From positions 1-64,000 of the forward strand of contig NZ_LABY01000171.1 of assembly GCF_001043975.1 (NCBI RefSeq): a stretch of 64,000 bases of DNA. The letters are read 5' to 3'. Within the stretch, counting starts at the first letter, position 1. Each line of letters opens with the position of its first letter. The position numbers and the translations under genes were made by a program. The notes below the pieces were generated by a model. That model had not been told where the DNA came from and searched no databases. It saw nothing but the letters and a program-made list of their open reading frames with translations. Below are positions 18,240 to 59,519 of this stretch, one piece after another. The stretch comes from Methylobacterium variabile (GTDB lineage Bacteria; Pseudomonadota; Alphaproteobacteria; Rhizobiales; Beijerinckiaceae).

Positions 18240-19301
18240 TCAGATCGTGCCGTGGACGAGGCCGTGGATGAAGCCGAGCTTGCCGATCACCGGCGGCGCC
18301 AGCACGAAGGGGTAGAGGTCGCCCTGGCCCATCGCCCGGTTGACGCTGTTGAGGGCGAACACGAAGGGCAGCCAGGCGCCGATGATCTGCTCGATGCTCT
18401 GCGCCTGGTAGGGGTCGAAGTCGATCCGCGCGGCGAGCTCGCCGCCCGCGTCGAGGAGCGGGTGGATTTGCATGCCGAAGGCGCTCGCCATCTCCAGCGT
18501 GTCGACGATGTGCAGGTAGTGGGCCCAGGTCTCGGCGAAGTCCTCCCACGGATGGGTGGTGGCGTAGGCCGAGACGAAGTTCTCCTGCCAGTTCGCCGGC
18601 GTGCCCTGCTCGTAGTGCCGCTGGAGCGCCGCGTTGTAGTCCTGCGAATCGTCGCCGAAGACGGCCCGGCAGGCGTCGAGCCGTCCGGCGTCGCGCACCA
18701 GCAGGTCCCAGTAATGGTGCCCGACCTCGTGGCGGAAATGCCCGAGCAGGGTGCGGTAGGGCTCGCCCATCTGCCGCCGGCGCTTCTCGCGCTCGGCGTC
18801 GTCGGCCTCGACGAGCGCGATGGTGATGACGCCGTTGTCGTGCCCGGTCATCACCTTCGGGCCCTGGTTCTCCGGCGGGTCGGCCAGGAAGTGGAAGATC
18901 AGCCCGTGCTCCGGGTCCTCGGCCCTGGTCTTCAGCGGCAGGTTCCAGCGCAGCAGGCTGTAGAACAGCCGGTGCTTGGCGAACTCCATCTCGCGCCACT
19001 TGGCGAGGTATTCCGGATTCGACACGTCCGGAATCGTGCCGTTGTGGCGGCAGGCGAGGCAGAACGCGTCGCCCGAGCCCGGCGGCACCAGCCAGTTGCA
19101 GGCGTCGTGCACCGCGTTGGCGCAGAACCGGCTCGGCCGGTCGCGGACGGCGAGCGGCGTCCAGTCCTCACCCCCGGCGGGCTCGAGCGCCGAGAGCGTG
19201 CCGGTCTCCGGCAGGTAGGCGAGGCGGTGCCCGCAGCGCTGGCAGGTGCGGTTCTCGAAGTACAGGATGTTGCCGCAGGACTGGCACTGGAACAGCTTCA
19301 T
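18240..19301 (-). CDS. Zinc-binding metallopeptidase with N-terminal zinc ribbon
   Basis: The 353-residue product starts with two CxxC pairs (CQSC, CQRC) that form a zinc ribbon, followed by a cysteine-bearing CANAVHDACNWL and CLACRHNG. The centre has the zincin motif HEVGHH (H191, E192, H195), with a downstream ETWAHYLHI that likely supplies the third ligand. This is the layout of a bacterial putative zinc-binding metallopeptidase family without a known substrate. There is no signal peptide, so it is cytoplasmic. The ATG at 19301 follows GGAGAT. It precedes the foreign nuclease pair but has the high GC of core genes. Confidence 0.85.
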   Translation of the reverse strand: MKLFQCQSCGNILYFENRTCQRCGHRLAYLPETGTLSALEPAGGEDWTPLAVRDRPSRFCANAVHDACNWLVPPGSGDAFCLACRHNGTIPDVSNPEYLAKWREMEFAKHRLFYSLLRWNLPLKTRAEDPEHGLIFHFLADPPENQGPKVMTGHDNGVITIALVEADDAEREKRRRQMGEPYRTLLGHFRHEVGHHYWDLLVRDAGRLDACRAVFGDDSQDYNAALQRHYEQGTPANWQENFVSAYATTHPWEDFAETWAHYLHIVDTLEMASAFGMQIHPLLDAGGELAARIDFDPYQAQSIEQIIGAWLPFVFALNSVNRAMGQGDLYPFVLAPPVIGKLGFIHGLVHGTI

Positions 19302-19463
19302 CGGGATCTCCACCGGGCGCAGGCGGCCGCACGGTGCAACGAACGTGCTAGGGGTGCGGGGGTTGCGATGGCGGCTGACCCGGCATGGCCCAACAGCCCT
19401 TGAGGTCGCGCCGCACTCCGCGGCGCGGCAGGCGGCATGGACGCGGATCGCCCTTCCTCGCCG

Positions 19464-20147
19464 CTACGCGGCGTGCCGCAGGGTGCCGGCCATCGTCTCC
19501 AGGTCCCTGATCAGCCCGGCCACGTCTTCCCGCGAGACCACGGTACGCAATCCGCCATGCACGATCTCGTTCCTGAGGCGTGCCAGGGACCGCAGCCGAC
19601 GGGCATCGTCGTCGTCGATGTAGCCTTCCTGAACCAGGATCTGCACGGCTTGGATCGGTGAGAGGGGCTTGGCCGGGTCGATGCCGCGCTGGTCCATGAC
19701 CAGGCGGGCGATGGCCTCCAGCGCCGCCCACCCCATCACGAACGCGGCCCGCTCATGGCCCGTCTCGTCCAGAGCACGGACCTCGGTAATGCCCGACGCG
19801 ATCGCCTCGAATGTCAGCGGGGGAGGCGACGTCTCGATCTGACCGGGCGTGTTCGCGTAGAACATGCGAAACGACCAGCCAGGCTGTTCGGAAACGCGCT
19901 TCGCGATGTCGGCCAGATGACCCCTCAGGGCTAGATCTTTTCGGTTGGTGATCTCGATCATGATTCCGCCGTCGGGGGTGATCACCATGGCGTCAGGCTC
20001 GTAACCATCCGCGAAGCCGGGAATCGCCTCCTTCGGCGGCGCCACGTAGAACGTCCAGCCGCGCCGTTCCGCATCCTGCCTCAGGTTGTCCAGCAAACGC
20101 CGCGTCTGAAGCGTCAACTCTTCTTCAGACAAGGACTCGAATGTCAT
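19464..20147 (-). CDS. Restriction-nuclease-like protein with HEPN-type C-terminus
   Basis: The 227-residue protein reads as two parts. The N-terminal half resembles a PD-(D/E)xK nuclease of the archaeal-Holliday-resolvase-like type, with PDAMVITPDGGIMIEI (D52, E65). The usual lysine after E65 is T67, and K70 is the nearest lysine. The C-terminal half is helical and ends with RNEIVHG (R192, N193, H197), which fits the HEPN RNase motif R-x4-6-H. Its start overlaps the stop of the upstream RusA-like gene by 4 bases (ATGA), so they are coupled. The GC content is much lower than in the surrounding genes. A defence or genome-integrity role is inferred, not shown. Confidence 0.65.
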   Translation of the reverse strand: MTFESLSEEELTLQTRRLLDNLRQDAERRGWTFYVAPPKEAIPGFADGYEPDAMVITPDGGIMIEITNRKDLALRGHLADIAKRVSEQPGWSFRMFYANTPGQIETSPPPLTFEAIASGITEVRALDETGHERAAFVMGWAALEAIARLVMDQRGIDPAKPLSPIQAVQILVQEGYIDDDDARRLRSLARLRNEIVHGGLRTVVSREDVAGLIRDLETMAGTLRHAA

Positions 20148-20587
20148 GGCACTCGCCTCCAACTGGTGTCGCTGCTGACCCTCACGTACACCATCGGAGG
20201 GTCCATGGCGGCAGCGTGCTGCAGCATGTCCGTGAGAGAATTGAACTCGACGTAGACACCCGGTTCGAATTTCTGAACAACCACTCTTTCGATGACTTGA
20301 TCGTCTCGATAGACGATGCTCCTCATCCCGTCGAGAATCGGCTTCACGATGTTGTCGACGTCGCCCTGCATGGGCGCCGGCGGGAAATAAAAGATCGTCA
20401 CCGATAAAGGTCGCTCATCCAGGAAAGTGAATTCCCGGCTCGCGGCAATGCGGTTCCTGGCGGCCTCGCCGACCATCGACTTCCAGGTCTCCCTCGCACT
20501 CTTCGAGGCCTGGAGCGAGCGAGGTGTCGCCTGGATCGTGAATTCGAGCGGGAACGGTACGGCGAGGTCGTCGTCCCAGTCGTGCAT
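20144..20587 (-). CDS. RusA-like endodeoxyribonuclease
   Basis: The 147-residue protein shows the RusA signature: an early LEFTIQATPRSLQ strand, then QGDVDNIVKPILDGM and YRDDQVIE. Aspartates D76 and D78, lysine K82 and aspartates D95/D96 match the metal-binding acidic residues of RusA Holliday-junction resolvases. RusA proteins are typically phage-derived, which agrees with the low GC (120 bases at 20221-20340 are 60 G+C by hand count). It overlaps the downstream REase/HEPN gene by 4 bases. The ATG at 20587 has only a weak ribosome-binding site; a TTG at 20617 would add ten residues. Confidence 0.78.
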   Translation of the reverse strand: MHDWDDDLAVPFPLEFTIQATPRSLQASKSARETWKSMVGEAARNRIAASREFTFLDERPLSVTIFYFPPAPMQGDVDNIVKPILDGMRSIVYRDDQVIERVVVQKFEPGVYVEFNSLTDMLQHAAAMDPPMVYVRVSSDTSWRRVP

Positions 20588-20796: not shown

Positions 20797-22347
20797 ATGG
20801 CGATGAACGGGGCCGAGAGCCTGGTGCGCACCCTGGTGGCGGGGGGCGTGGAGGTGTGCTTCACCAATCCGGGCACCTCGGAGATGCACTTCGTCGCCGC
20901 CCTCGACCGGGTCGAGGGGATGCGGGCGGTGCTGTGCCTGTTCGAGGGCGGCGCCACGGGTGCGGCCGACGGCTACGCCCGCATGGCCGACAAGCCGGCC
21001 TCGACCCTGCTCCACCTCGGCCCGGGCCTCGGCAACGGCATCGCCAACCTGCACAACGCGCGCCGCGCCCGCTCTCCGCTCGTCAACATCGTGGGCGAGC
21101 ATGCCACCTATCACCGCGCCTTCGACGCGCCGCTGACCTCCGACATCGAGGGTCTGGCCGGCCCGGTCTCGGCCTGGGTCCGCACCGGCATGAGCGCCAA
21201 GGCGGTGGCGGCGGACGGGGCCGACGCGATCGTCGCCGCCCGCACGGCGCCGGGCGGCGTCGCCACCCTGATCCTGCCCGCCGACACCGCCTGGGAGGAG
21301 GGTTCCGGCATCGCGCCCCTGCCGGCGATCCCCGAGCGGCCGCGGGCGAGCGACGAGGCGATCGCGCACGCGGTCGCGGCGCTCCGCAGCGGCGAGCCGG
21401 TGCTGCTCCACCTCGGCGACCGGGCGGTGCGCGACGAGGGCCGGCGCCTCGCCGCCCGCATCGCGCAGAAGACCGGCGCCAAGCTGCTGGCCATGACCTC
21501 GAACGCCCGCATCGACCGCGGCGCCGGCACGGTGCCGATCGAGCGCCTGCCCTATCCGGTCGACCCGGCCCGCGAGGTGCTGGCGCCCTACAAGCACGTG
21601 ATCCTGGTCGGCGCGACGCTGCCGGTGGCGTTCTTCGCCTATCCGGGCAAGCCGAGCGCGCTGGCGCCCGCCACCTGCGACGTCTTCGCCCTCGCGACCC
21701 CCGAGCAGGACCAGATCGACGCGCTGGAGCGCCTCGCCGAGGCGGTCGGCGCCCCCGCCGAGGCGCCGCTGCCCGCAGGGCCCCGGCCCGTCCTGCCCGG
21801 CGACGGGCCCCTCGACCAGGACGCGATCGGGCGGGTGCTCGGCGCGCTGATCCCCGAGGGCGCGATCATCTGCGACGAATCGGTCACGACCGGGCGCAAC
21901 TTCTTTCCCGCCACCCACGCGGCAGCGCCCCACACCTGGCTCCAGCTCAACGGCGGCTCGATCGGGCTCGGCATCCCGATGGCGACCGGCGCCGCGGTGG
22001 CCTGCCCGGACCGCAAGGTGATCTCGCTCCAGGCCGACGGCAGCGCCCTCTACACCGCCCAGGCGCTGTGGACCCAGGCCCGCGAGCGCCTCGACGTGGT
22101 CACGTTGATCTGGTCGAACCGTTCCTACGCGATCCTGCGCCACGAGCTGACCAATGTCGGCGCGAATCCCGGCCGCAAGGCGATCGACATGCTGACCCTC
22201 GACGATCCGCCGATCGACTGGGTGAGCCTGTCGCGGGGCTACGGCGTCGAGGCGCGCCGGGTCGAGACCCTGGCGCAGCTCGTCGACACCCTGACGGGGG
22301 CGCTGTCGCGCCGCGGCCCGTTCCTGATCGAGGTGGCGCTCGGGTAG
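20797..22347 (+). CDS. Thiamine diphosphate-dependent enzyme, acetolactate synthase-like
   Basis: The 516-residue protein has the three domains of the TPP enzyme family. The N-terminal PYR domain has the activating glutamate region (VCLFEGGATGAADGYARM), the middle is a Rossmann domain, and the C-terminal PP domain has the metal-binding QADGSALYTAQALWT and IWSN. Acetolactate synthase large subunits, benzoylformate decarboxylases and related enzymes share this plan. The protein is shorter than true IlvB and no small subunit gene is near, so a decarboxylase or other 2-oxo acid role is likely. The ATG at 20797 follows GAGGAG; an in-frame ATG at 20773 is possible. Confidence 0.85.
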   Translation: MAMNGAESLVRTLVAGGVEVCFTNPGTSEMHFVAALDRVEGMRAVLCLFEGGATGAADGYARMADKPASTLLHLGPGLGNGIANLHNARRARSPLVNIVGEHATYHRAFDAPLTSDIEGLAGPVSAWVRTGMSAKAVAADGADAIVAARTAPGGVATLILPADTAWEEGSGIAPLPAIPERPRASDEAIAHAVAALRSGEPVLLHLGDRAVRDEGRRLAARIAQKTGAKLLAMTSNARIDRGAGTVPIERLPYPVDPAREVLAPYKHVILVGATLPVAFFAYPGKPSALAPATCDVFALATPEQDQIDALERLAEAVGAPAEAPLPAGPRPVLPGDGPLDQDAIGRVLGALIPEGAIICDESVTTGRNFFPATHAAAPHTWLQLNGGSIGLGIPMATGAAVACPDRKVISLQADGSALYTAQALWTQARERLDVVTLIWSNRSYAILRHELTNVGANPGRKAIDMLTLDDPPIDWVSLSRGYGVEARRVETLAQLVDTLTGALSRRGPFLIEVALG

Positions 22348-57965: not shown

Positions 57966-58155
57966 CCGCCCCCTTTCCCGGACGACTGCAGCGAAGCGGA
58001 AGGAGATCCGGGGTCCAGCGCAAGGACTCGCCGCGAAGCGGCTCCAGCTCTGCAACGTTGCAGAAGTTCGGTCGCTCCGCGAAGTTCTAATTGCTGGATC
58101 CCGGATCTCCTTTCGCTGACGCTTCAGTCGTCCGGGAAAGGGGGCGGTTTTTTTT
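57966..58155. repeat. Inverted-repeat element ending in a T8 terminator
   Basis: Arms 57966-58019 and 58093-58147 are about 90% inverted copies (same repeat family as 42750-42808). The right arm is directly followed by TTTTTTTT at 58148-58155, which gives the rightward denD transcript a strong terminator. Confidence 0.75.
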
Positions 58156-58168
58156 GAGTCCGGCGGCA

Positions 58169-58204
58169 TAAAAAGAAACGGGCGGCACTCGCGTGCCGCC
58201 CGTT
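58169..58204 (-). terminator. Terminator of gltA
   Basis: A 12-base stem (58177-58188 and 58193-58204) with a TCGC loop; on the minus strand it is followed by TTCTTTTT. It begins 23 bases after the gltA stop. Confidence 0.85.
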
Positions 58205-58226
58205 CTCATTTTCCGATGTCTAGATT

Positions 58227-59519
<1,293 letters not shown>

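Follow-up and report, generated by a model that had tools for sequence, protein, structure and literature searches.

What keeps a gene for a Holliday junction resolvase-type nuclease joined to a gene whose product carries both a restriction endonuclease (REase)-like fold and a HEPN domain? The question is raised by a two-gene locus of Methylobacterium variabile, located within the first 64,000 nucleotides of contig NZ_LABY01000171.1 (that whole stretch is here called the window). A first-pass annotation of the window had described the locus as a mobile, low-GC pair of nuclease genes and had viewed it as a phage-defence module of a kind not known as a described system.

Position, composition and domains of the pair

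Both genes lie on the reverse strand. The upstream gene (20144..20587, 147 aa) encodes a RusA-family endonuclease, the downstream gene (19464..20147, 227 aa) an AHJR-like REase-HEPN fusion, and the ATG of the fusion gene overlaps the stop codon of the RusA gene by 4 bases, all of which had been placed correctly in the first-pass annotation. The flanking genes are a zinc metallopeptidase-like gene (18240-19313, reverse strand; a relative of it at locus L037 matches PF15887) and an acetolactate-synthase-like gene, named by eye (20797-22347, forward strand). The 7.43-Mb genome holds one RusA match and one fusion match. The pair has a GC content of 62.5% (59.0% in RusA, 64.6% in the fusion gene), compared with 72.1% over the whole window. 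No other part of the window of this length is as low, the minimum among 1124-base stretches free of the pair being 63.3%, and the count of 60 G or C in 120 bases given for 20221-20340 is exact. The composition had been called foreign; the low GC stands, but it is a general trait of the pair, which lies below its flanks in 73/76 loci by a mean of 7.7 points. The window has a second low-GC stretch at 58001-59000, with 63% over 1 kb.

RusA is a dimer that cuts four-way junctions, and its acidic residues and a lysine have catalytic roles. The first protein of the pair belongs to this endonuclease family by profile, by fold and by these residues, and junction cutting is the predicted activity. It matches PF05866 with 39.3 bits (cut-off 22.8, E 1.2e-9), its AlphaFold model (mean pLDDT 91.7, pTM 0.86) retrieved E. 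coli RusA as all seven top Foldseek matches, and in an alignment to 1q8r its D76, D78, K82 and D96 fall on D70, D72, K76 and D91 of E. coli RusA. The window protein resembles E. coli RusA and the phage RusA-like Holliday junction resolvases in its fold and in these equivalents; it differs from them in an identity of 12-15% over the fold, and in that its subfamily is cellular and linked to a HEPN gene.

The fusion protein is matched over residues 15-128 by PF18743 (AHJR-like; 65.8 bits, cut-off 26.1, E 3.3e-18) and over residues 142-198 by PF01934 (HepT-like; 26.3 bits, cut-off 23.5, E 6.5e-6), and its AlphaFold model has a mean pLDDT of 92.2 with a pTM of 0.65, a value that makes the mutual placement of the two domains less sure. 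The AHJR-like PD-(D/E)xK domain (19764..20105, reverse strand) keeps P51-D52 and E65 and has T67 at the position of the catalytic lysine, such that the D-(D/E)xK set is incomplete. The HEPN domain (19488..19829, reverse strand; about residues 107-220) carries the motifs E144-x3-R148 and R192-N-x3-H197. Foldseek matched the model to HEPN proteins (probability 1.00, best E 1.9e-3) and to Hjc resolvases (probability 0.84-0.87, E ~0.2), and VIA-align placed residues 107-227 on HEPN proteins, including HEPN-MNT toxins and Csm6, with Z up to 12.7, and residues ~12-100 on VRR_NUC (Z 6.8) and AF1548 (Z 6.5), although Z values of the latter size may mean a common arrangement only. Among solved chains, those closest in a sequence-profile comparison were ST1444 (E 9e-4) and HepT toxins (E 0.03-0.04), while the NCBIfam HepT_toxin model scored 21.7 bits, under its cut-off of 60. 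The HEPN domain of the window protein is HepT-like on the basis of the PF01934 match and the R-x4-H motif, with RNase activity as the prediction. Profile and structure searches thus agree with the first-pass assignment of a RusA-type nuclease and of a PD-(D/E)xK-like and a HEPN-type domain.

Conservation of the catalytic centres

Among 74 aligned RusA proteins D76, D78, N79, K82, D86 and D96 are each present in all 74, and in a wider, overlapping set of 104 distinct sequences D78 is found in 104 and D96 in 102. The fusion proteins are less uniform. In a census of 77, D52 is present in every protein, E65 in 66 and K67 in 31; in the HEPN domain E144, R192 and H197 are each kept in 77/77 and R148 in 59/77. 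A wider, overlapping set of 98 distinct fusion sequences gave K67 in 38, R192 in 97 and H197 in 98. The residues singled out in the first-pass annotation (D76 of RusA, E65 and H197 of the fusion) are therefore real family features, and the missing REase lysine, also pointed out there, is confirmed; its loss in 46/77 fusion proteins, including the window copy, is the commoner state and no oddity of this copy. The lysine is distributed by clade, being present in 28/37 pairs of one clade and 2/37 of the other, with at least 8 state changes on the tree, and an intact D-ExK set is found in 26/37 members of one clade.

Two divergent pairs from congeners G735 and G743 (L162:1025-2112 and L163:1363-2450) display the reverse of the usual decay: the RusA-type motif is intact, the PD...ExK set has all its residues, R-x4-H is gone, and the frame is open to normal length. 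HEPN catalysis is therefore not universal in the family. In another divergent pair, L247, the RusA-type, ExK and R-x4-H motifs are all complete. The RusA centre is thus the constant one, and either centre of the fusion protein can be lost, mostly that of the REase; the predicted catalytic centres that remain in the window copy are those of RusA and HEPN only. As estimated from dN/dS in twelve hand-picked close pairs (fusion 0.07-0.41, RusA 0.07-0.35; one comparison saturated and one without RusA), both genes are under purifying selection, and the pairwise distances of RusA and fusion proteins correlate (r 0.76, 74 loci).

Pairing and distribution

The RusA gene and the fusion gene form a nearly inseparable operon. 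Patterns drawn from the window fusion protein alone retrieved no relative in the genome collection, and the relatives were found by a RusA alignment. Among the best 80 of 213 RusA loci a fusion gene lies directly 3' of RusA on the same strand in 77 (in one of them cut by the contig end), a count to be read with the origin of the query in mind, since the aligned RusA genes came from such pairs. Two of the three exceptions are RusA genes that end at a contig end, and in the third, L099, a transposase gene (named by eye) follows on the other strand. Where the fusion gene is complete (76 pairs), the two genes overlap in 71, with a spacing of -4 in 42 pairs and of -1 in 29. In the reverse direction, RusA was found upstream in 34/35 places with a near-full-length fusion gene, a count that is not independent of the former as the two genome collections overlap: the strong fusion matches occupy 31 distinct places (33 loci, the window included), all with RusA sequence immediately upstream, and of four weaker matches that cover most of the fusion, L162, L163 and L247 have RusA and L137 has none. 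Other weak fusion matches were fragments or the HEPN part alone. Chance adjacency of the two genes is ruled out by these counts.

The L137 gene (L137:1498-2235) is a divergent AHJR-HEPN-like gene with no RusA within 1.5 kb, in which ExK is gone and R-x4-H is present; it is flanked by an aldehyde-dehydrogenase-like and a methyltransferase-like gene (by eye). In 3/35 places, in genomes G218, G684 and G685 (L003:1134-2181, L151:604-1782 and L157:1004-2127), an open fusion gene stands beside a RusA gene broken by frame changes or a stop, for which sequencing error is a possible cause.

The distribution is patchy. Within the genus a fusion match was found in 26/111 genomes and a full-length one in 19/111; in an order-wide sample the fusion was matched in 11/297 genomes and RusA in 9/297, and eight fusion matches with E <= 2e-11 were all paired; class-wide 13/385 genomes had a fusion match, six of them strong; and phylum-wide the fusion profile matched 24/398 genomes, over most of its length in 5, all of the window's class. 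A PF18743 search matched 4/299 genomes, three over the cut-off, in addition to the named control Caulobacter vibrioides, and it was this search that brought up locus L247. The first-pass annotation had let its reading stand or fall with conservation of the pair beyond close strains, and the pair does extend beyond them, to five orders and, with L247 (L247:911-2124), to a genome of the same phylum and another class. A restriction of the pair to the Alphaproteobacteria is ruled out by this divergent locus.

Plasmids are among the carriers. Six plasmids carry the fusion gene, the same six lead the RusA matches with the two genes adjacent by coordinates, and an adjacent pair was confirmed in five of the five plasmid stretches read; two further plasmid records had a weak RusA match only. 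Neither protein had a match at E 1e-5 in 50,697 phage records, and in 13 viral contigs with RusA-type matches no fusion gene occurred in the flanking DNA compared, two results that set the pair's RusA apart from the phage RusA-like resolvases and rule out the pair as phage cargo. Since these 13 viral-contig RusA genes stand without a fusion gene, the pairing is not a general habit of RusA. In some jumbo phages RusA replaces RuvC (PMC7824862).

Signs of horizontal movement, as had been proposed, are seen in the low GC (73/76 loci), the patchiness and a tree of 74 joined pairs that mixes five orders, with 14 order-label changes against a least possible 4 and a shuffled mean of 27.5, although paralogues can give the same picture, so that the mixing does not prove transfer. 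Two divergent copies, one per main clade, occur in Dankookia rubra (L041/L083) and likewise in Methylobacterium sp. J-026 (L038/L113).

The window's own site could be compared in 18/29 relatives' loci, those with the acetolactate-synthase-like gene within 1.5 kb (it is absent from that distance in the other 11). Eight have a gap of 145-455 bases without a match to the pair, one (G697) has an intact pair, three have remnants and six have other content. The remnants consist of a RusA gene split over two frames next to a truncated fusion gene (L222:5286-6025), a fusion C-terminus only (L220:468-596) and a RusA N-terminus only (L221:7559-7783). The other content, named by eye, includes a substrate-binding-like protein, a PLP enzyme with an AraC-like regulator, a peptidase-like ORF and others. 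In a close relative, G690, the site holds 3.6 kb of 56% GC (L214:268-3847), within which an 847-aa ORF consists of cysteine-bearing repeat units. The notion that the site is a defence hotspot is unsupported, the relatives holding a short gap, remnants, or unrelated and partly metabolic genes.

Genomic neighbourhood

Neighbours within two places of the pair at 76 loci, called by an in-house script and taken at 80-1500 aa, amounted to 272 genes. When these were compared with PADLOC at E <= 1e-10, one half (148 genes) gave 73 families (25 of the 73 listed) and the other half (124 genes) gave 3, taken for look-alikes, while a control of 150 genes, out of 175 called in 20 stretches taken from 10 genomes, gave 17 families, with mad3 (2.8e-58) and a reverse transcriptase (2e-43) as best matches. 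Single checks of ten neighbour proteins returned GajA (E 6.9e-221, L067), HamB (4.5e-74, L053), a dCTPase (5.1e-157, L069), a type II methylase (3.7e-81, L055) and weaker helicase matches at L074 (E 1e-10 to 1e-13), and nothing for two of the ten. A minority of loci thus adjoin Gabija, Hachiman or restriction-modification (R-M) genes. On plasmid pT136b the pair lies beside AbiEii, restriction endonuclease and UvrD-like genes, and on one Ti plasmid beside ligD and imuA / DNA polymerase Y / error-prone polymerase genes. In a Ti plasmid (L023:8628-10562) and a Rhizobium contig (L067:9100-11028) the pair is followed by an opposite-strand ATP-binding-protein gene of similar size; the protein at L067 appears GHKL-like by eye, and the GajA gene comes next in that contig.

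Judged by eye and from Pfam matches, the neighbours mostly have metabolic or housekeeping roles. Across 77 loci there is no fixed third gene, the commonest neighbour family within four genes occurring in 6/77, and no hsd or methylase gene recurs beside the pair. Because most neighbours are ordinary and the control also gave 17 families, the defence linkage is weak, and the setting offers support for a defence role that is weak and not decisive. The first-pass annotation had suggested a search in defence islands; a minority of loci lie near known defence genes and most by housekeeping genes. Of its phage-defence reading, the conserved two-gene unit and the signs of mobility hold, but the defence role is not established and is to be called plausible.

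Relation to known systems

In Table 1 of Anantharaman et al. 2013 (PMC3710099) the HEPN-M (DUF86/HepT) family is listed as ‘Occasionally fused to MNT, a previously undetected archaeal Holliday junction resolvase-like REase’, and the second gene of the window pair, with the same two domains in one polypeptide, very probably belongs to these HEPN-M-REase fusions. That paper gives the fusion half a line, and the word RusA is absent from its main text (the additional files fall outside this statement). It also describes HEPN domains with R-x4-6H as metal-independent RNases, and treats as an established theme the HEPN RNase that backs up a DNA nuclease as a second-line effector. With PrrC/RloC and the R-M-linked HEPN systems discussed there, the pair shares the logic of a DNA-sensing part that guards a HEPN RNase; it differs in having no ABC ATPase domain and no recurring hsd or methylase gene, and in having a resolvase-type nuclease as its DNA partner.

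HepT-MntA (HEPN-MNT) shares with the pair the HEPN Pfam family, the R-x4-H motif and the two-gene organization. MntA modifies a HepT tyrosine at H+2. In the window pair neither an adjacent MNT nucleotidyltransferase nor the H-x-Y target is found: the partner is RusA, an REase domain is added, and the H-x-Y tyrosine occurs in 0/77 fusion proteins; among 13 fusion sequences aligned at first, one (L031) has Y at H+2.

In PADLOC-DB 2.0.0 no listed system fits, the best match of the fusion being CARF_HEPN (E 0.041) and RusA having none up to E 1. No paper linking a HEPN-REase fusion to RusA was among the literature matches listed, which comprised few subscription papers and no supplements; in PMC12737573 and PMC8777954, as far as the matched text goes, ‘RusA’ is an author's name, and DefensePredictor (PMC13092281) reports HEPN domains in 4/31 validated systems and does not use the word in its main text. 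The database records read label the genes only as ‘RusA family’ and as ‘hypothetical’ or ‘HepT-like’. The first-pass view that the combination is not a described system agrees with these searches, and the pair may be a variant of the HEPN-guarded conflict module, in which the fusion has been known since 2013 and the link to RusA is apparently undescribed.

What might the pair do?

The explanation that we favour, at a probability of a little under two in five, is that of a conflict module of two proteins that moves horizontally and has RusA at its centre, in which branched DNA would license the nuclease of the fusion protein, usually HEPN. RusA and the fusion protein would come together, presumably as a complex, on branched or aberrant DNA, for example the replication and recombination intermediates of phages or plasmids. 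The AHJR-like domain may be mainly a part for junction binding and assembly that is still a nuclease in some members. RusA would cut the branched DNA, and that state would release the fusion's own nuclease, in most members probably the HEPN RNase, leading to a stop of translation and thus to growth arrest or abortive infection, with a benefit against phages or plasmids. Counted in favour of such a module are the pairing (77/80 and 34/35), the overlaps (71/76), the purifying selection, the patchiness (19/111), the invariant RusA and HEPN residues as against a lysine in 31/77, the GC below that of the flanks, the mixing of orders and some defence neighbours; counted against it are the loss of HEPN in L162/L163, the unpaired L137 gene, the broken RusA in 3/35, the ordinary neighbours and the lack of a match in the phage records. 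A more specific version, rather doubtful, would make the module an immune system with a Holliday junction resolvase as its sensor and trigger, where RusA and the often dead resolvase-like domain recognise the branched DNA of invaders and switch on the HEPN RNase.

The constancy of RusA even where HEPN is lost adds to the case for a rival reading, that of an accessory module of DNA repair or recombination, in which RusA would resolve junctions, the AHJR-like domain would help in binding, HEPN would dimerise or bind RNA, and the benefit would lie in genome maintenance; both DNA-facing domains have junction-resolvase-like folds, the chromosomal settings are mostly housekeeping, and the Ti-plasmid pair lies beside ligD and the imuA and polymerase genes. 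The HEPN R and H, which a scaffold would not need, are nevertheless kept in 77/77, and the reading is weakened by the patchy, low-GC (73/76 loci) and often remnant state of the pair and by the lack of a LexA box. With GTTC-N7-GTTC or GAAC-N7-GAAC as the LexA consensus, 0/77 regions upstream of RusA had an exact site and 8/77 a site with one mismatch, against shuffle means of 10-11. SOS control by LexA is ruled out, there being no excess of sites upstream of RusA. On balance, a repair module is rather doubtful.

The invariance of the RusA catalytic residues (74/74) argues in turn against a toxin-antitoxin-like unit, in which the HEPN protein would be an RNase toxin and RusA a protein antidote or co-regulator, kept by addiction and not by defence, as an antidote would need none of these residues. 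Two short overlapping genes with the partner first, a HEPN domain close to the HepT toxins, a patchy distribution with remnants and some plasmid copies are what such a unit would lead one to expect; it is further weakened by the open fusion genes beside broken RusA in three places (sequencing error being possible), by the persistence in two congeners of pairs without the HEPN motif, and by a partner that is no nucleotidyltransferase and a tyrosine at H+2 absent from 77/77, all of which leave it unlikely. The loci with broken RusA are a natural test of RusA as antidote. Least probable is direct DNA interference, in which the REase and RusA would cut invading DNA in a restriction-like manner without a methylase and HEPN would be a fail-safe: members with an intact D-ExK set (26/37 in one clade, and also L162, L163 and L247) and some loci beside methylase or restriction genes are in keeping with it, but the REase lysine is lost in 46/77 fusion proteins, the window copy included, with the operon still under purifying selection, and no gene family lies beside the pair in more than 6/77 loci.

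Implications

HEPN RNases with DNA-facing guards recur in bacterial immunity, and in the RusA-centred module favoured here the guard would be a junction resolvase whose own active site persists, whereas the REase or HEPN centre next to it may die. The operon is small and occurs in tractable alphaproteobacteria such as Caulobacter vibrioides DSM 9893, Methylobacterium and Rhizobium, where it lends itself to sharp predictions at the level of single residues. If RusA does act as such a guard, cells may be able to read the branching of DNA as a sign of infection, and in the version with RusA as sensor and trigger the danger signal would be the topology of the DNA rather than its sequence or modification.
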